NCBI RefSeq assembly: GCF_000165835.1
Contig: NC_014640.1
Span: forward strand, 3,782,001-3,846,000
DNA: 64,000 nt
Direction: 5' to 3'
Origin: Achromobacter xylosoxidans A8
GTDB lineage: Bacteria > Pseudomonadota > Gammaproteobacteria > Burkholderiales > Burkholderiaceae_B
Shown: positions 29,337-42,021 of the stretch, one piece after another
Layout of the letters: each line of letters opens with the position of its first letter
How positions within the stretch are numbered: position 1 is the stretch's first letter
Notes under the pieces: generated by a model
Told to the model about the DNA's origin: nothing
Databases searched by the model: none
Seen by the model: only the letters and a program-made list of their open reading frames with translations
Position numbers and translations under genes: made by a program

Positions 29337-30318
29337 GCACGCTCCGGGCCGTGAGACGGCGGATTGGCGGCCAATGCTGCTGGCGGGGCGCCAGCGGATC
29401 GCCGAAAACATCTATGCGGTGACGCTGGCCTGCGAACAGGGCGCGCCGCTGCCCGACATCGCGCCGGGCGATCACATCGAAGTACAGGTGCCGGGCGGCA
29501 CGCGCGCCTACTCGCTGTGCAATCCACCCGACGCGCGGGATGGCTACCACTTGGCCATCCATTGCGCGTCCGCGCACGGCGTAGCGCATTATCTGTGCGA
29601 GACGCATGCCATCGGCGCGCCCTTGCTGGTGCGAGGGCCGCGCAATCTTTTCGCGCTGTCGCCCCGACATCGTCGGGTTGTGCTGGTCGCGGGGGGCATC
29701 GGCATCACGCCCATCATCGCGATGGCGGAATACCTGGCGCGGCGCGGCCTGGACTTCGCGATGCACTACTGCGCGCGCCGCCGCGCCGCCGCCGCGTTCC
29801 TGAACCGGCTCGATGCCGGCGCCTGCCGGCACCAGGTGCGATACCACTTCGATGACGAACCCGAGGACGGGAGGTTGGACCTGGACAGGCTGTTTGCCGA
29901 CCTGGACGCGGACCAGCACGTGTATCTATGCGGTCCGAACGCGATGCTGGCCGACGCCGTGGCTTCGGCCGAGCGGCATGGCCTGGCCGGCCGCCTGCAT
30001 TACGAGCGCTTCGGCGCGAGCCGGCCGCCAGCGGCACAGGCGGCGGCAGAGGGAGCATTCGAAGTGGTGGCGGCACGCAGTGGCCGGCGCGTCGACGTGC
30101 CGCCGGACTGCTCGATCGCCACCGCGCTGGCCCGCGCCGGCGTGGAGGTACCGCTGTCCTGCGAGCAGGGCGTGTGCGGCATGTGCATGACGCGGGTCCT
30201 CGACGGCATCCCCGACCATCGCGACGACGTGCTGTCGGAGGCCGAGCGCGCGTCGAACAACCTCATCTTGCCCTGCGTTTCGCGCGCAAAGTCGGCGTCG
30301 CTCACGCTGGACCTTTGA
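29329..30318 (+). CDS. Phthalate-dioxygenase-type reductase with C-terminal [2Fe-2S] domain
   Basis: A 329-residue flavoprotein-iron-sulfur reductase (PDR/VanB family): flavin-binding RAYSLCN (residues 59-65), NAD(P)-binding GGIGITPIIAMAEYL and YLCGPNAML, then a plant-type [2Fe-2S] domain with CEQGVCGMCMTRVLDG and a distal Cys in LILPCVS. It takes electrons from NAD(P)H. Having both this built-in [2Fe-2S] domain and a separate ferredoxin for one P450 is uncommon; electrons may pass reductase to ferredoxin to P450, or the ferredoxin may be bypassed. The chosen ATG overlaps the ferredoxin stop by 8 nt; longer upstream reading would run inside the ferredoxin gene. Confidence 0.9.
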   Translation: MVEHAPGRETADWRPMLLAGRQRIAENIYAVTLACEQGAPLPDIAPGDHIEVQVPGGTRAYSLCNPPDARDGYHLAIHCASAHGVAHYLCETHAIGAPLLVRGPRNLFALSPRHRRVVLVAGGIGITPIIAMAEYLARRGLDFAMHYCARRRAAAAFLNRLDAGACRHQVRYHFDDEPEDGRLDLDRLFADLDADQHVYLCGPNAMLADAVASAERHGLAGRLHYERFGASRPPAAQAAAEGAFEVVAARSGRRVDVPPDCSIATALARAGVEVPLSCEQGVCGMCMTRVLDGIPDHRDDVLSEAERASNNLILPCVSRAKSASLTLDL

Positions 30319-30405
30319 GTCGGCGCGCGGGGGCAATCGAACATCACTTGCACCCGTCATCCGGTTCGCTGGCGGTCGGGCGCCACAACATACCTAGGAG
30401 ATAGG

Positions 30406-31284
30406 ATGAAACTTGCCATGTTCCACGAGGGCGGCCGAGACCGCCTGGGCGTCGTCGAGGCGGACGCGATCATCGACGTGACCGCGGACCTACCGGCGTT
30501 GTCGCCCGATCTTGCCGACTGGCTGCCAGGGCAGGACACGTCGTGGCGGCTGCTTGCGCTGCTGGCGCGCGAGTCCAGAGCACGCCTGCCGCTGTCCGCC
30601 GTGCGGCTGCTGCCGCCGCTGCGGCGGCCGTCAGCGTTTCTGGCCATCGGCGGCAACTATGCCTCGCATCTGCGGGAGATCGCCCGTTTGAACGTCAGCG
30701 TGGGAGAGCACCAGATCTGGTTCAACAAGCAGGCCTCCTGCATTACCGGGCCGTTCGATGACCTGATCATTCCCCCGGGTATGTCGACGCTGGACTACGA
30801 AGTGGAACTGGCGGTGGTTATTGGCCGGCGTTGCCGCAACGTGCGAGCCCGCGACGCCATCCACTACATCGCCGGATACACAGTCTGCAACGACGCCAGC
30901 ATCCGCGAACGCCATCACCGCAGTCCGACCATCACGCTGGCCAAGTCATTCGATTCGCTGGGCCCGCTGGGGCCGTGGCTGGTCACGGCCGACGAGATCG
31001 CCGACCCGCACGCGCTCCAGATCCGCACCTGGGTCAATGGCGAACTGCGGCAAGACGGCAACACGGCGGAGATGCGCTTCAACATCTTCGATCAGATCGA
31101 GGAGCTGAGCAGCGCCATGACACTGGAGCCCGGCGATGTGTTGGCCACGGGCACGCCGGCGGGCATCGGCGCCGCGCGCCAACCGCCGTTGTTCCTCGCG
31201 CCGGGCGACGTCGTTCGCATGCATATCGAAGGCATCGGCGACATCAGGAACCGCGTCGTGGCCGCACCGCCTGCGCAGGCCTGA
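30406..31284 (+). CDS. Fumarylacetoacetate hydrolase-family protein
   Basis: A 292-residue FAH-fold enzyme. The catalytic domain has the metal ligands in STLDYEVELAVVIGRRC (two Glu) and CNDASIRERHH (Asp), and the substrate loop TPAGIGAARQPP. This family cleaves C-C bonds of acylpyruvates or decarboxylates/hydrates ring-fission products of aromatic catabolism. AGGAG precedes the ATG by 7 nt. It is the fourth gene of the P450 operon and probably acts late in the pathway that the P450 begins. Confidence 0.88.
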   Translation: MKLAMFHEGGRDRLGVVEADAIIDVTADLPALSPDLADWLPGQDTSWRLLALLARESRARLPLSAVRLLPPLRRPSAFLAIGGNYASHLREIARLNVSVGEHQIWFNKQASCITGPFDDLIIPPGMSTLDYEVELAVVIGRRCRNVRARDAIHYIAGYTVCNDASIRERHHRSPTITLAKSFDSLGPLGPWLVTADEIADPHALQIRTWVNGELRQDGNTAEMRFNIFDQIEELSSAMTLEPGDVLATGTPAGIGAARQPPLFLAPGDVVRMHIEGIGDIRNRVVAAPPAQA

Positions 31285-31354
31285 ACGGCGGCGCCACATC
31301 CCGCGCCACCGTCTTGATGGCGGCGCCCGCACCTTCCAAGCAGGACTTCCGATC

Positions 31355-32152
31355 ATGCTATGCATCACGTTTGACAACTTCGGTAGCGCGGCCGGCGACG
31401 CGCTGCCCTGGCCTTGCCCCGCCAGCATTCCCACCGCCGAATGGGCTGCCTACAACCAAATCGGCCTGGAGTTGGGCCATCCGCGCATCCTCCAGCTGTT
31501 GGATGAATTACAGATCCGCTGCACCTATTTCGCCGAGGGCTATGCAGCCCTGCGGTATCCGGATGAGTTGCTGGCCTGGCATGCGGCCGGGCATGAGATT
31601 GCCATGCACGGCTGGAAACATGAAATGTGGACGGGCATCGCCTCGCGCGAAGAAGAAGACCGCCTGATCCAGCTCGCCGTATCGAGCATCCGCGGGTTGA
31701 CAGGGCTGGCGCCGGTGGGTTTCCGGCCGCCGGGGCTGGCCATCAATCCCTGGACGGACGAGGCGCTGGCGGCGCACGGCATCCGCTATGTGTCGCTGGC
31801 GCTGCCTGGCAGGACCGACGCGACGACGATGCCGACGCGGGTGGCGGTGCTGCCTACCGATCCCGCGCTGATCGATGGCGCGGTCATCCATCCACGATTC
31901 GGCGGCATTTTCGGCACGCTGGACGCGACGGCAGCCTATGAGCAGCTGTATCGGTCCGCGCTGACCCACGAGACGGCGCGTCCCGACGAACCCTGGGTGC
32001 TGGTCGTGCATCCGTTCACCTCGGGCAACCGGGCCTGGTTCGGCTTTGAGGATTTCATGCGGCGCCTGGCCTTGGCATTCGGCCCCGCGCGTTTTGCGCT
32101 GGCGAAGGACGCGGTGCCATCAATGACGCACGCCCGCGCGCCCCTGGATTGA
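31355..32152 (+). CDS. Polysaccharide deacetylase-family (NodB-fold) hydrolase
   Basis: A 265-residue NodB-homology protein with no signal peptide, so probably cytosolic. Motif 1 is ITFDNFG, where the catalytic Asp is kept but the second Asp, usually a metal ligand, is Asn; motif 2 MHGWKHE supplies the His-x3-His pair; motif 3 FRPPGLAINPWT and motif 5 VLVVHPF are present. Cytosolic members of this fold act on small amides or imides (PuuE allantoinase is an example), so a ring-opening or amide-hydrolysing step fits better than a polysaccharide. AGGA lies before the ATG. Fifth gene of the P450 operon. Confidence 0.82.
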   Translation: MLCITFDNFGSAAGDALPWPCPASIPTAEWAAYNQIGLELGHPRILQLLDELQIRCTYFAEGYAALRYPDELLAWHAAGHEIAMHGWKHEMWTGIASREEEDRLIQLAVSSIRGLTGLAPVGFRPPGLAINPWTDEALAAHGIRYVSLALPGRTDATTMPTRVAVLPTDPALIDGAVIHPRFGGIFGTLDATAAYEQLYRSALTHETARPDEPWVLVVHPFTSGNRAWFGFEDFMRRLALAFGPARFALAKDAVPSMTHARAPLD

Positions 32153-32257
32153 TATCAGACCGTCCGTCTGTGCATCGGCGCGGGCCGGCAGGCCCTGCGG
32201 GCCCGCGCCATTTAAGCAGCAGTCGCACACACAAAATACATATAAGGGAGACAAATC

Positions 32258-33184
32258 ATGAGGCATTTCGTTTTCATCGGCATCCTGCTCTGGGCCTGTG
32301 CGCGCAACGCGCTGGCGGCGCAAGGTGTGACCTATGGTGGTCCGGTCGGGGGCACCGACATACAGAGCGCCTACTTGCCGCCGCATCCGGGCCTATATGG
32401 TTCGGCCATCGCCGTGGGCGCGTTGGGGGAAAAGTTCTATGACAACGCCGGGCAGAGTTCCACGACTTCCGGAAGGCTGCCAGGCGGAATTGCGCAGTTC
32501 GGTCTTCTCTTTGTCTATCCGCATAAGCTGTTCGGTGGGACCCTGGGCAGTTCCGTCTCCACTGGCTACGGTTGGGGCAGTATCACCGTCAACGGCAAGC
32601 ATCAGAACTTCAAGGGTATGAACGACATCTACACCGACGTACTCATGTGGAGCAAGCATCTTGGCACTGTCGAAGAGGGCCGACCGCGCGGCTTGACGAT
32701 GAAGCTGGGGTATTCGATGGTACTGCCCACTGGCAAGTACGACGCGAAAGAACTGTACACGACAGGACGCAATACGCTCTATTACATCCCGAACGGTGCG
32801 TTCACCTATCTGACCGGGCCGAATTTCTTGGGCGACGGCACCGAGTTCAGCATGAGCTATTTCCTGGACATTGCCCGCAAGAATTCTGCGACCGGCTACC
32901 GGAACGGGATGGTGGTGGACGTGGACATGGCGATCAGTGAGGTCATCGGTCGATGGCAGCTGGGCGTGGCGGGGTACTACGCGCGCCAGATCGCCGACGA
33001 CAGGCTGAACGGGCAACGTGTGTCGGGTAATCGCTTCGCCAGCGCGGCGGTCGGGCCGGTCATCGCGTACAACATGCCGGACTGCAAATGCAGCGTCAAG
33101 TTCAAGGCACAGTTCTCCGTGTTCACGCGAAATTCACTGGCGCCTAACGCCGCCTATCTATTCTTCAACAAAGCATTCAACTAG
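32258..33184 (+). CDS. Outer-membrane MetA-pathway-of-phenol-degradation-type channel
   Basis: A 308-residue protein with a signal peptide (IGILLWACARNALAA, about residue 20) and a beta-barrel pattern of alternating aromatic residues ending in Phe-Asn (LFFNKAFN). It resembles the Phenol_MetA_deg family, outer-membrane proteins found in operons for degradation of phenols and other hydrophobic compounds and thought to help their uptake. AGGGAGA precedes the ATG. It is the last gene of the P450 operon and is followed by palindromic repeat A with a T-run. Confidence 0.85.
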   Translation: MRHFVFIGILLWACARNALAAQGVTYGGPVGGTDIQSAYLPPHPGLYGSAIAVGALGEKFYDNAGQSSTTSGRLPGGIAQFGLLFVYPHKLFGGTLGSSVSTGYGWGSITVNGKHQNFKGMNDIYTDVLMWSKHLGTVEEGRPRGLTMKLGYSMVLPTGKYDAKELYTTGRNTLYYIPNGAFTYLTGPNFLGDGTEFSMSYFLDIARKNSATGYRNGMVVDVDMAISEVIGRWQLGVAGYYARQIADDRLNGQRVSGNRFASAAVGPVIAYNMPDCKCSVKFKAQFSVFTRNSLAPNAAYLFFNKAFN

Positions 33185-33270: not shown

Positions 33271-33329
33271 GGTGTCAGACTACAATTTCACAGTATCTAA
33301 GTGGCGAAATTGTAGTCTGACACCTTTTT
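33271..33329 (+). repeat. Palindromic repeat copy A, also terminator of the P450 operon
   Basis: GGTGTCAGACTACAATTTC (33271-33289) and its perfect reverse complement (33306-33324) enclose a 16-nt spacer and are followed by TTTTT. As RNA this is a 19-bp stem with a U-run, which would end the P450 operon. It is the best-preserved member of a family with further copies at 34443, 39846 and 42022. Confidence 0.85.
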
Positions 33330-33369
33330 CTGCGTCACCATCGGCCCTTCCGACGATACCGCGCACCCT

Positions 33370-34233: not shown

Positions 34234-34434
34234 TCAGTGGACACCTAATTTCCGCTTGCTATGCGCAGCTTCAAACTCATTCGGACTAACACCGCCGAGA
34301 TAGCTGTGTCGTCGCACTGAATTGTAGAAATCATCAATGTACTCGGCCAAGCTTAAAGTAGCAGCATCGCGGTCCGAGTAGATATGCTTCTTGATGTGCT
34401 CCTTCTTCCGGCCACCGAAGAACGACTCGGCTAC
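34234..34434 (-). mobile_element. IS3-family transposase (OrfB) C-terminal remnant
   Basis: The translation AESFFGGRKKEHIKKHIYSD followed by LAEYIDDFYNSVRRHSYLGG and VSPNEFEAA is the end of an IS3-group integrase-fold transposase, including the third catalytic Glu in AESFF. Everything before AESFF, with the other catalytic Asp residues, is missing; the frame continues instead into palindromic repeat B. About 66 residues remain, so it is inactive debris. Confidence 0.88.
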
Positions 34435-34442
34435 GAGGAAAA

Positions 34443-34495
34443 GGTGGCAGACTACAATTTCGCCACCGACTGCTGCGGAATTGTAGTTTGACACC
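34443..34495. repeat. Palindromic repeat copy B
   Basis: GGTGGCAGACTACAATTTC (34443-34461), a 15-nt spacer and GGAATTGTAGTTTGACACC (34477-34495). The arms pair with three mismatches. It abuts the truncated edge of the IS3 remnant. Confidence 0.8.
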
Positions 34496-34528: not shown

Positions 34529-35242
34529 CTATCTGCTTGTGCGCAAACCGAAACGAGTTGTGGCCATCATCCTGATACGGTTGGACGAATTGACGGATGG
34601 GGTGTGCAGCACGCGCATATCCATCAAAAAAACATCGCCAGCCCGTCCCGACATCTCGATGATTTCGGTGTTGGATGCGCTGAGAACAGCTTCGAGATCA
34701 ACAGGCGTTTTCAACGACCTACGAAGTCTCCCAGCCGTTTCACCCGCCACGCGATGAGAACGGGCCAGCGCTAAAGTCGCGCCCCCGTGTTCAATAACGT
34801 CGTCGATCAGATAGAACACCTGGATGCCGGGAATCTCAGCGCCAGATGTCGCAGCCAGGTCAACGTGCCAGTTCAGGCTGCCCAGAGACCAAGGCCCTTG
34901 ATGAGGCAGAGACAGCAAGGGCTGCGTGCCTTGGCTGGATTGCCGGGCTCTGCCGGTCAGGTCAGCAATTGCGTTGCGGATTTCCGCCGTGTTCAGCGTT
35001 CTATCCAGATCCGCAATCTTCACCATCGAGGATAGCTTTGCGATCTGCTGGAAGGGCGACAAATTATTCAGTGAGCTGCCAAGACTTTTTCCACCGGCCC
35101 AGACCTTGAGCCGCGATAGCTCACGCAGAATGCACTCTCGAAGCGGCTTCAGACAGCGCTTGGAATGTGCACCGCTCAATCGCAAGTACCCTTCTCTATG
35201 GAAAAAATCGAGCTCTGATTGATTGAAAGTTTTGCCTGTCAT
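34529..35242 (-). CDS. Phytanoyl-CoA dioxygenase (PhyH)-family Fe(II)/2-oxoglutarate oxygenase
   Basis: A non-heme iron oxygenase; family members hydroxylate (sometimes halogenate) small molecules or carrier-bound amino acids. The fold begins at FNQSELDFFHREGYLRLSG. Iron ligands are His and Asp in NWHVDLA and the distal His in MRVLHTPSV, with the 2-oxoglutarate-binding Arg in NSSNRIRMM. I chose the ATG for MTGKTFNQ (237 residues) because it starts the family-like region; the frame stays open to 35443 but that extension resembles nothing in the family. It follows the second cysS gene on the same strand, so the two may share transcription. Substrate unknown; start uncertain. Confidence 0.78.
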   Translation of the reverse strand: MTGKTFNQSELDFFHREGYLRLSGAHSKRCLKPLRECILRELSRLKVWAGGKSLGSSLNNLSPFQQIAKLSSMVKIADLDRTLNTAEIRNAIADLTGRARQSSQGTQPLLSLPHQGPWSLGSLNWHVDLAATSGAEIPGIQVFYLIDDVIEHGGATLALARSHRVAGETAGRLRRSLKTPVDLEAVLSASNTEIIEMSGRAGDVFLMDMRVLHTPSVNSSNRIRMMATTRFGLRTSR

Positions 35243-35453
35243 GTTCGAGACTTTCGTATAACGGCTTCTGTCTGGACAGTCGTAAACGTCATTTAATCCG
35301 TAGGTTGCTGGCTTCGATAGATTACACATTCCAACTCGCTGAACATCCGCAACTGGCCGGGAGCCGCCTTTGATAGCCAACCGTTCTCGACCCACAACGG
35401 CCAATCGAGCCCGTGCCAACCGGACATTCAGTTCGGTGCCCATGCTGTTATCA

Positions 35454-36857
35454 CTAGCTTCCGATATCTGTGGGGAGCGTGGCGATTTCAGTCAGGCGTT
35501 GCCCGTCGTTGCCATCCTCGACTCTCCAGCCTCGGGTGTTTAACATCTTCCGTATCTCATCGGCTTTTACCCAGTTCTTTGCCTCTCGGGCTTGAGCGCG
35601 TTCACCGAGTAGCACCCGGATACTTTCCGGAATGTCAGACGCAACTGGGTTCCAATCGCGTAACCCGAGGCCCAGTACAAAATCAAAGCTGTCCACAGTC
35701 GCTTTCAAGGTCGCAGGGGGGAGCTCGCTCTTGACGAGTTCCCATAGCACGGCCAATGCCCTCGGCAGATTCAGGTCATCATTCAATTCGGCGTTGAAGC
35801 GCGCGGCGAAATCCGGATCGATGCGGCCACCGTCAGGCCAACCGGAATAGAGATGCCGCAGCCGGTTCAAGGCTGTCTGCGCGGCACCAAGAGACGCCCA
35901 ACTGAAATGCAGCTTGCTCCGGTAATGCGCTGTCATGCACAGGTAGCGGTAGGCAAGCGGATCGATGTTCCGACTGCGCAAGGTCTGCAAGCGAACAAAA
36001 TCCCCGCTCGACTTCGACATCTTGCTGTCGGCATTGAGTGTTAGAAAATGTCCGTGTATCCAGAAGTTCGCAAGACGAGTGCCGTGGGCCGCTTGTGTTT
36101 GCGCAATTTCGTTGCTGTGATGCACGGCGATATGGTCTTCTCCGCCACAGTGGATGTCGAACCAGATGCCGAGGTGTTTCGCCGACATGGCCGAGCACTC
36201 AATGTGCCAGCCCGGAAATCCACGCCCCCATGGGCTATCCCATTCCATCTGCCGGACCACGCCCTCCGGACTGAACTTCCATAGCGCAAAATCCGTGATG
36301 TTCTGCTTCGCGCCAAGTGCTACGCGCTTGCCCGCCTGCAGGCCGGCACGGTCAAGCCGGGCCAGAAAGCCGTAGTCATCCTGTTTGCTTGTGTCGAAAT
36401 AGAGACCGTCGTTGGTCCTATACACGTAGCCGGACCGATCCAACTGGCCGATAAACGCGATCTGTTCGGCAATGTGATCGGTCGCGCGGCACCATACCGT
36501 CGGCTCCAGCAAGTTGAGGGCTTGCCAATCCGCGACGAAGGCCTCGGTGTAGCGCTGAGCAATAGCATATGCGGACTCCCCGGTCCGTCTGCTACCTTTT
36601 TCCATCTTGTCTTCGCCTTCGTCGGCATCCGAAGTCAGATGACCGACGTCGGTGATATTGACGACGTGACGGACCTCATAGCCGTTGCGAATGAGTACCC
36701 GACGCAGAATGTCTTCAAACACATACGTTCTTAAATTGCCAATATGCGCATGGTCGTAGACGGTGGGGCCGCAGCAATACATGCCGACGTGGCCAGCGTG
36801 GATTGGCGTAAACGAGCGCACGGTACGCGACCAGGTGTCATACAACGCAAGCGGCAT
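35454..36857 (-). CDS. cysS: Cysteinyl-tRNA synthetase, probable second copy
   Basis: A complete class I aminoacyl-tRNA synthetase of 467 residues that charges tRNA(Cys) with cysteine. Seen: the zinc Cys and HIGH-type motif in YCCGPTVYDHAHIGN (HIGN rather than HIGH, residues 38-41), zinc ligands in WHIECSAM and DIHCGGEDHIAVHHSNE, the KMSKS loop in NADSKMSKSSGDF, and the C-terminal DALR helical part with WVKADEIRKML. The ATG has GGAGAGAG 4 nt before it. Its lower GC, its island setting beside IS debris and the divergent HIGN and CGGED wording suggest a horizontally acquired extra copy rather than the housekeeping gene, which should lie elsewhere. Regulation is probably by the leader-peptide attenuator just upstream. 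Confidence 0.9.
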   Translation of the reverse strand: MPLALYDTWSRTVRSFTPIHAGHVGMYCCGPTVYDHAHIGNLRTYVFEDILRRVLIRNGYEVRHVVNITDVGHLTSDADEGEDKMEKGSRRTGESAYAIAQRYTEAFVADWQALNLLEPTVWCRATDHIAEQIAFIGQLDRSGYVYRTNDGLYFDTSKQDDYGFLARLDRAGLQAGKRVALGAKQNITDFALWKFSPEGVVRQMEWDSPWGRGFPGWHIECSAMSAKHLGIWFDIHCGGEDHIAVHHSNEIAQTQAAHGTRLANFWIHGHFLTLNADSKMSKSSGDFVRLQTLRSRNIDPLAYRYLCMTAHYRSKLHFSWASLGAAQTALNRLRHLYSGWPDGGRIDPDFAARFNAELNDDLNLPRALAVLWELVKSELPPATLKATVDSFDFVLGLGLRDWNPVASDIPESIRVLLGERAQAREAKNWVKADEIRKMLNTRGWRVEDGNDGQRLTEIATLPTDIGS

Positions 36858-36891
36858 CAACTCTCTCCGTATGGAAGGGCGCAGGCAAAAA

Positions 36892-36922
36892 CAAAAAAGC
36901 CGCCGGTTTTGCAACGGGCGGC
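36892..36922 (-). terminator. Intrinsic terminator (attenuator) before cysS
   Basis: On the minus strand GCCGCC (36922-36917) pairs with GGCGGC (36904-36899), extended after a C-C mismatch by GTT/AAC closed with a GCAA loop, then TTTTTTG. It lies 32 nt after the leader-peptide stop and 35 nt before the cysS ATG, the position of a transcription attenuator. Confidence 0.88.
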
Positions 36923-36954
36923 CAAAGGCGATTGATTCAACGTGCAGCTAATGG

Positions 36955-37032
36955 CTAGACGCAGCTTCCCCCCGGCACGTTCTGACAACATGCACGGACC
37001 AGCGGAAAGAGGGATTTGAAGCGAGTAGACAT
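36955..37032 (-). CDS. Cys-containing leader peptide, 25 codons, upstream of cysS
   Basis: A short ORF, too small for routine gene calling, encodes 25 residues that end RACCQNVPGGSCV, with adjacent Cys codons at 15-16 and a third at 24, directly before the stop. Its ATG is only 7 nt after the -10 box, so the mRNA would start at or next to the ATG (leaderless). AACGTGC inside the leader can pair with GCACGTT just after its stop, and the G-rich part (CCGGGGGG) could pair with the left arm of the terminator. A ribosome waiting at the Cys codons would favour the second pairing and let transcription reach cysS. The layout is seen; the regulation is inferred. Confidence 0.75.
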   Translation of the reverse strand: MSTRFKSLFPLVRACCQNVPGGSCV

Positions 37033-37039
37033 GCCCACA

Positions 37040-37069
37040 ATCCTAGCGGCTTTTGGCTGAGCAGGTCAA
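37040..37069 (-). promoter_or_regulatory. Sigma-70-type promoter for the leader peptide and cysS
   Basis: On the minus strand -35 TTGACC (37069-37064), an 18-nt spacer and -10 TAGGAT (37045-37040). Transcription would begin at about 37032-37034, at the leader ATG. The promoter lies 40 nt past the end of an IS110-family remnant. Confidence 0.75.
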
Positions 37070-37108
37070 TACTGGCGGAAAAAAGATGCCCTCTTGCCCG
37101 TCCAGAAA

Positions 37109-37234
37109 CTAGGCGTAATCCGGGCGATAGGATGAACGCGTCTTGAGTACGCCGAAGCACAGATGAGCGAGCTTTCTCATTGCAGCGCTCACCCCGACCC
37201 AGCATCGTTCTTGGAACCGGGCGACGAGCAGCCG
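37109..37234 (-). mobile_element. IS110-family transposase C-terminal remnant
   Basis: The minus-strand frame reads RLLVARFQERCWVGVS then AAMRKLAHLCFGVLKTRSSY and RPDYA before a stop. The pattern AAMRKLxHxxxGVLK is the conserved C-terminal end of IS110-type (DEDD/Tpase_20) transposases. Only about 41 residues are left and no start codon or other part of the element is visible, so it is debris. Confidence 0.7.
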
Positions 37235-38995: not shown

Positions 38996-39769
38996 TCAGT
39001 CATTCACAGATGGAATTTTGTAGGTCCCATTTTGAACCGCCTGCTGAGCGCGTCCGGGATCGTATTCCCAATGCCATGGCTCACCACTGACGGTGCGAAC
39101 GAATCCAAACCGAGGCGCGCTCTGTTTTAGCCACTCATAAACCTCGTTGCCGTCCGCGCCGGCGACAGCAATATCGATGGCGATTCCGTTCTGGTGGTTC
39201 GAGTTGCCGGGTTTCGCAGCCAAATTGAATCCGGGAAGACGCTTGACATACCCATCCCACAACATCTTCTGCTCCGGATAGGATCGGAACCCGCTATTGA
39301 TAGTGAGGTTGACCCCCGACGACTTCGCCTCACCAACCATTTCCAGATATGGCGAAACAGTATCAATGGAAAGACGCTCAATTTCCATCTTCGAATCGAT
39401 TATTTCGACGACGTCAATCTGGCCAATGTAGGCGCCATGCGACCAGGCGGCATTAGAACCGAACTTTCCACTTCCAGCCGCGGGCTTGAGCAGATCCAGT
39501 GTCTCATTGATAAACCCGCCGTCGACGTTCTTTGTCGAGGTCCAGCCAAGTGGCTCGCCATCTTCTCGGACGGCATGCGCAAACAACGCGACCTTCTTTG
39601 CTCCAGTCTGCAAGCGTTGAATCGCATCAACACGTACGACAGTCCCTTTCGGTATTATTCGGATTTTTCCGTTGGCCGTTTCGAAAGCCATGAGATTGTT
39701 TGCTTGCCTCAACCGCGCGTCGGGATCCGAGACGGTGAAGCTGTTGCTGAGATAGCTACGTTCAAGCAT
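38996..39769 (-). CDS. M15-type D-Ala-D-Ala carboxypeptidase/endolysin-like peptidase
   Basis: A 257-residue zinc peptidase of the VanY/DacA-like M15B group that trims cell-wall peptides. The C-terminal catalytic domain (about 135-250) has INSGFRSYPEQ (Arg162), the zinc ligands His192 and Asp199 in SNHQNGIAIDIAV, and His233 in GEPWHWEY. The N-terminal 80 residues look like an SH3-type wall-binding domain (IRIIPKGTVVRVDAI, EPLGWTSTKN). There is no signal peptide, so export may need a holin or another route, as for phage-derived or type VI-linked peptidases. Lower GC than the flanks. It stands in the island with unrelated genes. Confidence 0.85.
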   Translation of the reverse strand: MLERSYLSNSFTVSDPDARLRQANNLMAFETANGKIRIIPKGTVVRVDAIQRLQTGAKKVALFAHAVREDGEPLGWTSTKNVDGGFINETLDLLKPAAGSGKFGSNAAWSHGAYIGQIDVVEIIDSKMEIERLSIDTVSPYLEMVGEAKSSGVNLTINSGFRSYPEQKMLWDGYVKRLPGFNLAAKPGNSNHQNGIAIDIAVAGADGNEVYEWLKQSAPRFGFVRTVSGEPWHWEYDPGRAQQAVQNGTYKIPSVND

Positions 39770-39845
39770 AGGTCCTCCATTTAGGCGCTTGCCTGAAATC
39801 AGATCGGAACACTACGACACACCTAGCTGTGCAAAAAATAAAATG

Positions 39846-39900
39846 GGTACCAGACTAAAATTTCCGCAATATCCAGATAGCGAAACTGTTGTCCAACACC
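39846..39900. repeat. Palindromic repeat copy C (degenerate)
   Basis: GGTACCAGACTAAAATTTC (39846-39864), a 17-nt spacer and GAAACTGTTGTCCAACACC (39882-39900). The spacer (CAATATCCAGATAGC) resembles that of copy A, so the copies share descent rather than only the arms. Confidence 0.7.
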
Positions 39901-39981
39901 ATTTCCTGAGCGCGGATCAGCCGGCCGGTAGCAGACCGGGCGGCTTTCGAATTCGGCCGCATGACCGGCATTGTGGCCAGA

Positions 39982-40623
39982 TCAGTTATCGACCCGTGCG
40001 CGAAGTTTTTCCAGAAAACTTTCGACCGAACTGGACTTGATAATGGACTTGAAATTCGAATAATGGGCCTGCTGAACGGACATCCCGCTCACATACATTT
40101 CGACCATCTGCCATTTACCATCTATATAGAGAAGTTGAAACTCCATGGTGAACTCGTTGGCCTTCGATTTCGCCGAATAGTAAATGCAGTCCGCCATCTT
40201 CAGCGTGAGGCAGGTGATCTGGATCACAGCAACCGAGCTTGGCTTGCTTCGGAACATCTCCCCAGACTCCAATACAAACTGCGAGGGCAACAGGCCTTCG
40301 AAGGCGCCTTGGAGGGTCCTCATCAAGAACCGGCTATAAAGTTCAACGGCTTCTGCCTGCCTTGCCGCTGACATCGATCCCCATGCGGGTCCCAGTACAA
40401 CTCGCGTCATGGTCTCGGTTGCTACCAGGCGCTTGAAGGTGGGGCCAACACGTTGAGCGAACGCTTGCTTGGTCTCTTTCTGCGGGTTCGCCATAGCTAG
40501 AAGTGCCACTGCAACCCCTTTGGCATCGGCATCCGGTTTTTGAGAGGGCTGCGCGGTTCCACTTCCGGGCGATCCCATCAAAAGAAAGCTCAGCAGCAGA
40601 AGTTTCGCAAGCACGTATTGCAT
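39982..40623 (-). CDS. MlaC/Ttg2D-family periplasmic phospholipid-binding-like protein
   Basis: A 213-residue exported protein: signal peptide (LAKLLLLSFLLMGSPGSGTA) followed by the MlaC/Tol_Tol_Ttg2 pattern, with FKRLVATETMTRVVLGPAW, SAARQAEAVELYSRFLMRTL and the beta-sheet part FQLLYIDGKWQMVEMYVSGMSVQQAHYSNF near the C-terminus (written here in part). MlaC carries phospholipids between the membranes, but here no mlaA/B/D/E/F genes are nearby and the gene is in an island, so the role may differ. I chose MQYVLAKLL because it begins the signal peptide. Confidence 0.75.
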   Translation of the reverse strand: MQYVLAKLLLLSFLLMGSPGSGTAQPSQKPDADAKGVAVALLAMANPQKETKQAFAQRVGPTFKRLVATETMTRVVLGPAWGSMSAARQAEAVELYSRFLMRTLQGAFEGLLPSQFVLESGEMFRSKPSSVAVIQITCLTLKMADCIYYSAKSKANEFTMEFQLLYIDGKWQMVEMYVSGMSVQQAHYSNFKSIIKSSSVESFLEKLRARVDN

Positions 40624-40709
40624 CTTTTTTTCATCCAGCAGCCGTGGAGAATGCACGCGTCCTACGCAAGACGCCTGTGCTCGGTGAGCAAACTTCGAGT
40701 CGCGGGACA

Positions 40710-41309
40710 CTACTGTTTAGCGCTCGCGGCCTCCCGGCCAGGCTTTGCCGCGTTGCTGCCGGCCTTTAACTTCGCGCGCTCCGCGTTGCAGTCGAGTTCC
40801 AGCACCACCTTCCCGGTATTCTTTTCCGTGACCTTCGACGCCAGCTTCAGGTCTTTCGGATTGCCCCGATCCTTGCATGCTTCGTATGCATAGCCTTTTG
40901 CGGAAGAGAGTAGTAGCCCAGGATGGCGCGGAGCGGTAACCGCCGCTTTCCACTGGCCGGATTGTTCCTGCCAGTACGCCTGATACATCGTGGTGTCCTG
41001 CGGCGGGTTTGTTGCCGCCTGGAGTTCCTTGGTTTTAGCTCGCTCCGCGTTGCAGTCCAGTTCCAGCACGACCTTCCCGGTAGCCTTCTCCGTCACTTTC
41101 GCGGCGCGGTTCCAAAGCTTGGGGATACCGCGATCCAGGCAGGCCCGATGCGCAGCTCCTTCTGCAAAATTCAGATCGGTCCCAGGTTGATTTGCCGCAG
41201 GCCCCTTCCACACTCCCGCAGGATCCTCCCAGGTGGCGACGTATTGCGCGTCAGCCGGACCAGCCAGCAGCATGCCTATCACGCCCGCACCGCATAGCCA
41301 ATTCCTCAT
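40710..41309 (-). CDS. Exported hypothetical protein with an internal domain duplication
   Basis: A 199-residue protein with a short signal peptide (WLCGAGVIGMLLAGPADA). The mature part is two copies of a domain of about 70 residues: residues 24-93 and 110-182. Each has W-x-D/Q near its start, then CxDRGxPK, KVTEKxTGKVVLELDCNAER at its end and one pair of Cys (57/86 and 145/174). The duplication is also very clear in the DNA (around 40771-40830 against 41036-41100), so it is recent or kept alike by recombination. No family known to me. It is in tandem with the MlaC-like gene, 86 nt apart. Confidence 0.7.
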   Translation of the reverse strand: MRNWLCGAGVIGMLLAGPADAQYVATWEDPAGVWKGPAANQPGTDLNFAEGAAHRACLDRGIPKLWNRAAKVTEKATGKVVLELDCNAERAKTKELQAATNPPQDTTMYQAYWQEQSGQWKAAVTAPRHPGLLLSSAKGYAYEACKDRGNPKDLKLASKVTEKNTGKVVLELDCNAERAKLKAGSNAAKPGREAASAKQ

Positions 41310-41575
41310 GATCGCCCCCCATTCTCTTTTTGAACGAGTAGGTTATTCGTGATCGCGGTGTAAGTAACTAGCCCGGAAGGAGCAATCCGATGCTTCCGGG
41401 CGATACGGTGACACAGCCCTAAGCTCCCCTTTCCCGGCCCGATCCATCAAGTCCGTCGAATCTGATGCAGGCCACCTCGTCCGCCTTGATCCGGATCGCA
41501 AAAACTGACCAGTCTCAGCCCTGGCGGCTCGATTTCGAACGAGTTAGATAGCGCAGTCAGCCTGTCAACACGCCA
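41310..41575. other. 266-nt intergenic region with one hairpin
   Basis: GCCCGGAAG (41371-41379) and CTTCCGGGC (41393-41401) form a 9-bp stem without a T-run. No gene, promoter or transposase relic was recognised in the rest. Confidence 0.5.
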
Positions 41576-41959
41576 TCATCGGCTTTTGGAAATCACATCG
41601 CTCATGTACTTGTTCAAATCCCGAAAATCCTGAACGGTCCAGGAGTGCGGCGCCAGCTTCACGCCGTTCTCTCTCAACGTTCTCGGAATCAGATCTCCGT
41701 TCGGACGAAGGATTACCGACGAGACTATGACGCCCGGATATTCATTGAGTCGCTTCTTGAACGCAGTCGTTGTGAGGTCGGGCGTGGGAGGATTGCTTTT
41801 CTTGGCCAGTGGCCCCGAGCCCTTGATATCTGCGCCGTGGCACATCGCGCATCTCTGGGTGTAGAGATTCTTCCCGTTGAGGCTCTGTGCGAAAGATAGT
41901 GATGGTTGAGTCAACACCCACGCTCCTAGCGTGGCGAGGACTAATTCTCTTGCTTTCAT
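41576..41959 (-). CDS. Single-heme c-type cytochrome
   Basis: A 127-residue periplasmic cytochrome c: signal peptide (ELVLATLGAWVLTQPSLSFA), then the heme-binding CAMCHG about 12 residues into the mature protein (Cys37, Cys40, His41). The likely axial Met is in DLNKYMSDVI near the C-terminus. AAGGA precedes the ATG. No oxidase or dehydrogenase partner is encoded beside it. It is the last gene of the island before half-repeat D. Confidence 0.85.
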   Translation of the reverse strand: MKARELVLATLGAWVLTQPSLSFAQSLNGKNLYTQRCAMCHGADIKGSGPLAKKSNPPTPDLTTTAFKKRLNEYPGVIVSSVILRPNGDLIPRTLRENGVKLAPHSWTVQDFRDLNKYMSDVISKSR

Positions 41960-42021
41960 TTGTCCTTGTCGTATCAGGCAAATTGGCGGGCCGCCGAGTA
42001 TAGACTCGTAGCAAGAAAATT

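Follow-up and report, generated by a model that had tools for sequence, protein, structure and literature searches.

A conserved tandem-cysteine leader and terminator as a probable attenuator of an accessory cysteinyl-tRNA synthetase gene in betaproteobacteria

The 64,000-nucleotide (nt) stretch of Achromobacter xylosoxidans A8 DNA analysed here (NC_014640.1, positions 3,782,001 to 3,846,000; hereafter the window) carries on its minus strand a cysteinyl-tRNA synthetase (CysRS) gene, cysS2, preceded by a short open reading frame (ORF) with tandem cysteine codons and by an intrinsic terminator. An earlier note, made from the sequence alone, had read this arrangement as an attenuator that turns on a second synthetase when Cys-tRNA runs low, and all the elements that it named on the minus strand (promoter, 25-codon ORF, terminator, ribosome-binding site and cysS) are present where it had placed them. 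The gene (35454..36857, minus strand; ATG at 36857, stop ending at 35454) encodes a type-2 CysRS of 467 amino acids. The protein matches PF01406 (9.7e-88), TIGR00435 cysS (395.6 bits, cut-off 340) and the CysRS of PDB 3sp1 (1.9e-94); the HIGN and KMSKS motifs are seen in the alignment with 3sp1, and the residues that we take to be the zinc ligands look present by inspection. It is indeed a second synthetase, as the host genome (7.36 Mb) carries another, housekeeping CysRS that is 40% identical to it. No tandem-Cys ORF was found in the ~420 nt read by eye upstream of the housekeeping cysS, and the scan of L197 agrees.

Upstream of cysS2, along the minus strand, a promoter scan returned a -35 hexamer, TTGACC (37064..37069), and a -10 hexamer, TAGGAT (37040..37045), with a spacer of 18 and 9/12 matches. 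The -35 hexamer is TTGACC in 30 of the 31 close loci (those of at least 72% identity, window included) and TTGACG in one. Only 7 nt separate the -10 hexamer from the ATG (37032) of the leader ORF, MSTRFKSLFPLVRACCQNVPGGSCV, which comprises 25 codons and a TAG stop (36955..37032, the stop ending at 36955), and the gap is exactly 7 nt in 31/31 close loci. Judging from this gap, the cysS2 transcript probably starts at the leader ATG or within a base or so of it. Cys codons stand at positions 15 and 16 (TGT TGT, 36985..36990) and, read from the sequence, at position 24 (36961..36963), the first two lying in a hairpin, GCATGTT-GTCAG-AACGTGC (36975..36993). Beyond the leader lie the terminator stem-loop GGCCGCCCGTTGCAAAACCGGCGGCT (36898..36923; -16.4 kcal/mol, with 2/200 shuffles as good) and its T-rich tail TTTTTTGTTTTT (36887..36898; sequence reading and scan), and the ribosome-binding site of cysS2, GGAGAGAG (36861..36868, by inspection), follows ~30 nt past the terminator stem. 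The 901-nt region scanned contains one promoter-like site (shuffle mean 0.6) and two overlapping terminator-like sites (shuffle mean 1.0), and the whole 177-nt leader folds no better than shuffles (z -1.25). An alternative, namely a fixed terminator behind a promoter, with a chance ORF between and no regulation, draws on precisely this near-chance occurrence of the single elements. Since single elements are near chance in a region of such size, conservation had to decide.

The comparison of homologous cysS loci that the earlier note had suggested was accordingly run on 91 type-2 loci of at least 55% identity, made up of the best 80 of 587 relatives and 11 further loci from genomes of the genus; the pairs L003/L086 and L004/L087, each with one and the same CysRS sequence, are probably duplicates. 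A strict leader test, demanding an ATG-initiated ORF of 8-60 codons with two adjacent Cys codons 5-8 nt behind a promoter of 9/12 matches, was passed by 41 of the 91 loci compared with 2 of 18,200 shuffled upstream regions, the shuffles keeping base composition and not dinucleotides. None of 19 type-1 cysS loci passed, and no ORF whatever in them meets the promoter and length part of the test. The tandem Cys codons are kept in 31/31 close loci. A relaxed -35 criterion adds L041, L053, L055, L066 and L081, and single-Cys-codon leaders occur at five Oxalobacteraceae loci (L052, L060, L077, L078 and L082). A control covered 56 cysS upstream regions from 60 genomes of the phylum, in two sets of 30 (with the housekeeping cysS of the window genome) and 26; only one of the 56 held a tandem-Cys ORF preceded at 4-9 nt by a -10-like hexamer. 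In this case (L205, ~1339, in a genome of the class) the gene is a type-1 cysS and the short ORF before it reads MCCCALRKVHEIGA; it is possibly a Cys leader and possibly not. By this comparison the Cys leader before cysS2 is not due to chance, because it is conserved. The 41/91 against 2/18,200, together with the compensatory changes in the Cys hairpin and the terminator described below, make a chance ORF without regulation a highly improbable account. NCBIfam holds no family for the five leader peptides searched.

The distribution of the leader was also followed on a midpoint-rooted tree of 90 CysRS (L079, which is short, was left out), with leader labels assigned by the author. On the betaproteobacterial side, 46 of the 65 rows have a tandem-Cys leader, five a single-Cys and three a poly-Cys leader, and 11 are without one, whereas all 25 rows of the other side (Chloroflexota, some Gammaproteobacteria and others) are without a Cys leader. 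The carriers include Achromobacter, Burkholderia, Paraburkholderia, Trinickia, Chromobacterium and others; as far as the sequences go, the arrangement recurs, with its sequence changed, in many betaproteobacteria. Loss of the leader from loci that keep cysS, which the earlier note had named as telling against its reading, is not seen among the close loci, but distant type-2 loci are often without a leader. At the three Undibacterium loci (L029, L031 and L080), ORFs rich in Cys codons near their end stand before the type-2 CysRS; a simple scan, which also missed some clear terminators, found no terminator there, and these poly-Cys leaders are perhaps a translation-level version of the attenuator.

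The earlier note had listed Cys codons 15, 16 and 24. The tandem pair is conserved, but Cys24 is not. In alignment A1, which comprises 29 of the 31 close loci (L086 and L087 were dropped as duplicates), GCA TGY TGT is invariant, the Cys pair reading TGY TGT in 29/29 rows. Cys24, by comparison, is lost in L083, L088 and L090, where a one-base shift behind the Cys pair gives ETASSN or ETAPSN, its position holds another residue in L009, L010, L014 and L023, and the usual leader stop is lost in L089. The reading frame thus drifts after the Cys pair in four loci (L083, L088, L089 and L090) while the pair stays, implying that the pair is kept and not the peptide as such. As a sensor codon Cys24 was rejected, being unconserved and leaving, when a ribosome stalls there, only a weak fold ahead (energy given below). 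A preference for TGT at the sensor codons also counts in favour of attenuation. TGT is used at the first sensor position in 26 of 38 leaders and at the second in 37 of 38, compared with 30 of 251 Cys codons of cysS2 ORFs and 9 of 44 in six other ORFs of the window; since the last two bases of the second codon sit in the hairpin loop in the close loci, pairing does not explain the preference.

A different role for the pair would be to sense some other signal, be it a metal or oxidation acting on the peptide as it emerges, or a drug causing ribosome arrest on this peptide. Tandem Cys residues can bind metals, and in close relatives no part of the peptide is better conserved than the codons around the pair. 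Yet distant relatives have other residues around the pair, and in some close ones the reading frame shifts behind it. Moreover, the gene under control encodes the enzyme for that very codon, and a peptide sensor would have no need of the observed preference for TGT over its synonym. We consider this explanation very unlikely.

Support for RNA structure comes from both hairpins. In the 29 aligned sequences, 91.1% of cells in the Cys hairpin are paired, and in its arms GCAUGUU:AACGUGC both sides have changed in 10 cells, where shuffles average 3.3. The terminator is paired in 99.7% of cells, with 16 compensatory cells at two pairs against a shuffle mean of 5.2. The parts of the leader, their conservation and the compensatory changes in the two hairpins can be read directly from the sequences. 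RNAalifold adds a helix, UCCC:GGGG, which encloses the Cys hairpin and pairs in 94.0% of cells. No Rfam family, T-box or other, reaches its gathering score in the window, and there is no T-box among the three weak matches (36840-37120); both readings were rejected.

For an attenuator, a competing structure would be expected to disrupt the terminator, and the earlier note had proposed two alternative pairings. One of them, AACGTGC with GCACGTT across the leader stop, is not conserved: it is perfect only in the window among the 29 aligned loci and pairs in 57.1% of cells, the same as shuffles (56.9%), and it was rejected as the antiterminator. The other, in which the G-rich end of the leader pairs with the left arm of the terminator, is supported within limits. 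The candidate arms are GCCGGGGGG (36968..36976, minus strand; duplex tests and folding) and CCTTTGGC (36921..36928, minus strand; duplex against shuffles), the latter overlapping the left arm of the terminator, and the corresponding helix, GCCxGGGG:CYUCUGGC, is formed in 86.3% of A1 cells. Because its register drifts, the helix was also tested as a free duplex against shuffled spacers in 37 of 39 leaders, L043 (no terminator found) and L092 (short spacer) being left out. The duplex lies under the shuffle mean in 35 of the 37 leaders and within the best 5% in 15 of them (mean z -1.49). Folding of the window RNA ahead of a stalled ribosome, cut before the right arm of the terminator, gave -20.5 kcal/mol for a stall at Cys15 and -18.5 kcal/mol at Cys16, and in each case the partner of the G-rich segment is the inner end of the terminator left arm. 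With the ribosome at Cys24 or at the stop, the RNA ahead folds with only -6.0 and -5.1 kcal/mol, respectively. By these energies the polymerase should get through when the ribosome stalls at the Cys pair but not when it stalls at Cys24, and should be stopped once the leader has been completed.

It should, however, be noted that several observations weigh against this picture. In the Cys hairpin, covariation is confined to a single pair and a second pair fails in 12/29 rows, and the shuffles used for covariation do not allow for relatedness. Neither the enclosing UCCC:GGGG helix nor, beyond shuffles on A1, the antiterminator helix shows covariation, and the overlap between Cys hairpin and antiterminator is only ~2 nt. 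In the duplex test the window itself gives a z of only -0.71, with 112 of 500 shuffles as good, and the duplexes of L036 and L067 go the opposite way. With the ribosome at Cys15, the RNA ahead folds best in a register other than that of the conserved duplex. Even without any ribosome the left arm of the window's terminator is already 0.47 paired. A looser measure, the chance of upstream pairing by the left arm, favours a Cys stall over the stop in 34 of 38 leaders but exceeds the shuffle mean in only 7 of 38, so that it was dropped as evidence. Finally, 11 of the 65 betaproteobacterial-side rows have no Cys leader by the author's reading. The antiterminator is the weakest part of the evidence for the attenuator.

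Considering the conservation of the Cys pair and terminator across the close homologous loci, which supports the attenuation proposed in the earlier note, the leader is very likely to act by ribosome-mediated transcription attenuation, sensing charged tRNA-Cys and thereby controlling an accessory CysRS. The transcription start, the stall, antitermination and the physiological signal are what we infer from the arrangement, as follows. RNA polymerase would start at or beside the leader ATG, and a ribosome would load on the nearly leaderless message. With enough Cys-tRNA, the ribosome would reach the stop codon and cover the G-rich segment, so that the terminator hairpin forms and cysS2 stays off. 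When Cys-tRNA is scarce, the ribosome would stall at Cys15 or Cys16, melting the hairpin over the Cys codons. The front edge of a ribosome lies ~12 nt ahead of its A site, and with the A site at Cys15 it would stand at the start of GCCGGGGGG. This segment could then pair with CCTTTGGC and the left arm of the terminator, the terminator would fail, and transcription of cysS2 would allow more Cys-tRNA to be made. The leader and terminator would thus probably turn the spare CysRS on only when charged tRNA-Cys is short.

An attenuator responding to the same codons may instead act at the level of translation or through Rho, as proposed for actinobacteria; the decision would then fall at Rho or at the ribosome-binding site of cysS2, and the hairpin would be secondary. 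The cysteine genes of Mycobacterium smegmatis are reported to be under translation attenuation (PMC13236596), and Rho has been proposed for actinobacterial cys operons (PMC1262725). The three Undibacterium poly-Cys leaders without a terminator in the simple scan, and the antiterminator evidence being the weakest part of the transcription model, also favour it. However, a canonical terminator with a T-run is conserved beside the Cys leader, and the distance from the terminator stem to the ribosome-binding site, given above, also counts against it. This variant is therefore unlikely, and transcription attenuation at the terminator is retained.

A wider family was sought with a covariance model, R1. 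In the window genome, R1 gave six matches up to an expectation value (E) of 10, of which one was strong (1.8e-36); the next match (0.0235) was rejected, being by eye a tRNA and then a terminator. At E up to 0.1, R1 matched 31 of the 369 genomes searched in the class, and at E up to 0.001 it matched 16 of 399 in the order. Thirteen R1-hit loci were read, with the genes around six of them, and most resemble chance terminators. R1 with strict filters missed the Cys leader of one genome (G042, L092), so that its silence elsewhere proves little. In a genome of the order, the locus L148 (1647-1500, minus strand) has a Cys leader, MNMPSRFFVPCCAQCCRPGPGELVA, separated by 7 nt from a TACGAT hexamer whose -35 is poor, and then a terminator and a cysE-like serine O-acetyltransferase gene (PF06426, 1.4e-26; the cysE piece scores 196.5 bits with TIGR01172, under the cut-off of 210.65). 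A leader of the same layout as that of cysS2 thus precedes a cysteine-synthesis gene, which was counted in favour of attenuation. No clear Cys leader was found before other cysE genes at 30 loci from 60 genomes of the order, where 24 of the 30 matches begin inside the protein and the upstream region was seen in part. The genome of L148 also has a Leu leader, MFSIRQSVLLLLANDPTGPALEHVC, with a terminator (L162, 145-287), and downstream of it a GNAT-like ORF (by eye) and leuA (NF002086, above cut-off); a further R1 match, L153, is a Leu leader (LLLL) with a terminator. The same style of leader may therefore serve more than one amino acid. As a separate observation, L118 and L119, from two genomes of one genus of the class, score 43 and 37.9 bits with R1 and show an ORF whose product includes Trp and Cys, together with a terminator; an EamA-type transporter comes next (Pfam was run on that of L118), and neither locus has a cysS match. 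In the window genome, an ATG 6-8 nt behind a -10-like hexamer was found at only four places matching the pattern, among them two regulator genes that look ArsR- and MarR-like by eye (G000:C1:2688101-2688137 and G000:C1:6657645-6657682), which suggests other leaderless messages in this genome.

The gene behind the leader appears to be a spare copy. In 50 genomes, taken from 50 of the 80 named loci, several of them metagenome bins that may be incomplete, both CysRS types are found in 28. The type-2 gene has a Cys leader in 26 of these 28 (five of the leaders single-Cys), the exceptions being L027 and L030. The 22 remaining genomes have type 2 only; eight of them have a Cys leader, two of those being poly-Cys without a visible terminator. 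A type-2 CysRS with a Cys leader would accordingly seem to be an accessory enzyme and not the housekeeping copy. Within the genus, 10 of 37 genomes (window genome counted) have a type-2 gene at 95% identity or more, and among the named loci, i.e. the best 80 of 587 relatives, the most similar cysS2 are from A. xylosoxidans and A. insolitus. The reason why so many betaproteobacteria keep a second, divergent CysRS, probably off in normal growth, is open to test.

A more far-reaching reading, which we hold to be possible but somewhat doubtful, is that of a rescue cassette, self-contained and horizontally mobile, that comprises the promoter, the Cys attenuator, the terminator and the type-2 CysRS gene. 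Its divergent stand-by synthetase would be silent until charging of tRNA-Cys fails and would then restore it. Among 30 of the 91 loci compared, as judged from the 14 largest groups, only cysS2 is common across genera: the unit of promoter, attenuator and gene is shared and the neighbours are not, except in Paraburkholderia, where 6-7 loci share neighbours with each other. In the CysRS tree, Achromobacter is nested in a clade of Burkholderia and Trinickia (support 97/97). Near cysS2 lies a truncated integrase core (rve_2; window 34234-34494), and an inverted repeat around GTGTCAGACTACAATTTC was seen by eye at ~33280-33345; these are likely remnants of an insertion sequence beside the cassette. 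The sharing across genera, the nearby integrase remnant and the nested clade suggest transfer as a unit. Guanine-plus-cytosine content is 0.55-0.58 at the cassette compared with 0.65-0.68 at 30000-32500. A further low stretch (0.52-0.59) lies at 39000-42000, however, so that low values are not special to the cassette. Directly downstream of cysS2 lies a gene for a PhyH-type dioxygenase (34529-35443, minus strand; domain match), with relatives in four of the other 90 type-2 loci (L003, L083, L086 and L088; Achromobacter or the same genus), some loci having short flanks. If the cassette proposal is true, the trigger could be a lack of cysteine or damage to or inhibition of the housekeeping CysRS, and the cassette would be the cysteine counterpart of drug-tolerant accessory synthetases; we know of no drug link for cysS2.

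Several known systems share parts of this design. Streptomyces coelicolor trpRS1 is said to be an auxiliary, indolmycin-resistant synthetase under a Trp leader attenuator; like cysS2 as read here, it would be an accessory enzyme attenuated by its own amino acid, in this case another amino acid and lineage. Canestrari et al. (2020) reportedly described leaderless poly-Cys ORFs of mycobacteria that respond to cysteine. The Cys ORF of cysS2, probably nearly leaderless to judge from its 7-nt gap, would resemble these, whereas the mycobacterial ORFs precede cysteine biosynthesis genes and are described as acting by translation attenuation. Leaderless Cys leaders are described for mycobacteria (PMC13236596). 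According to another study, the cys leaders of Mycobacterium come without a conserved terminator hairpin, which the cysS2 leader has; the same source gives trpS and leuS of Streptomyces and pheST of gammaproteobacteria as attenuated by their own amino acid, as cysS2 would be, with other amino acids and lineages (PMC1262725). Similarly, His leader peptides stand before the hisZ and hisS* paralogues of bacilli. Here, too, a leader-peptide attenuator precedes an extra aminoacyl-tRNA synthetase gene, but the amino acid is histidine, the hosts are Firmicutes, and leaderlessness is not mentioned in the part of that paper available (PMC2965389).

The nearest published relative of the cysS2 leader appears to be the uORFC-8-2 motif, a tandem-Cys ORF with a terminator before cysS, of which 145 examples are given, exclusively from Rhodobacterales (PMC8632094). 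The earlier note had called an almost leaderless Cys leader driving a tRNA synthetase in a betaproteobacterium seemingly unusual; the arrangement is not peculiar to this strain, and a tandem-Cys leader before cysS was predicted earlier in alphaproteobacteria (PMC8632094). Compared by description, the two share the tandem Cys codons (usually 14/15 there, 15/16 here), a first stem that holds them, a terminator with a U-run, the position before cysS and the proposed mechanism. What differs is the lineage, the present loci being betaproteobacterial, the type-2 CysRS being accessory beside type 1, and the ORF beginning 7 nt from the -10 hexamer; neither leaderless ORFs nor an antiterminator is mentioned in the available text on uORFC-8-2 (PMC8632094). 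No earlier report of a betaproteobacterial Cys attenuator before cysS was found in the literature searched, most subscription journals being outside the search. What appears to be new is the occurrence in betaproteobacteria, the accessory synthetase, an ORF that is probably nearly leaderless, and the apparent movement of the cassette on its own. The 39 natural leader variants offer a set for testing a nearly leaderless attenuator, and Cys-codon attenuation of cysS would extend to betaproteobacteria, tied there to an accessory rather than a housekeeping synthetase.

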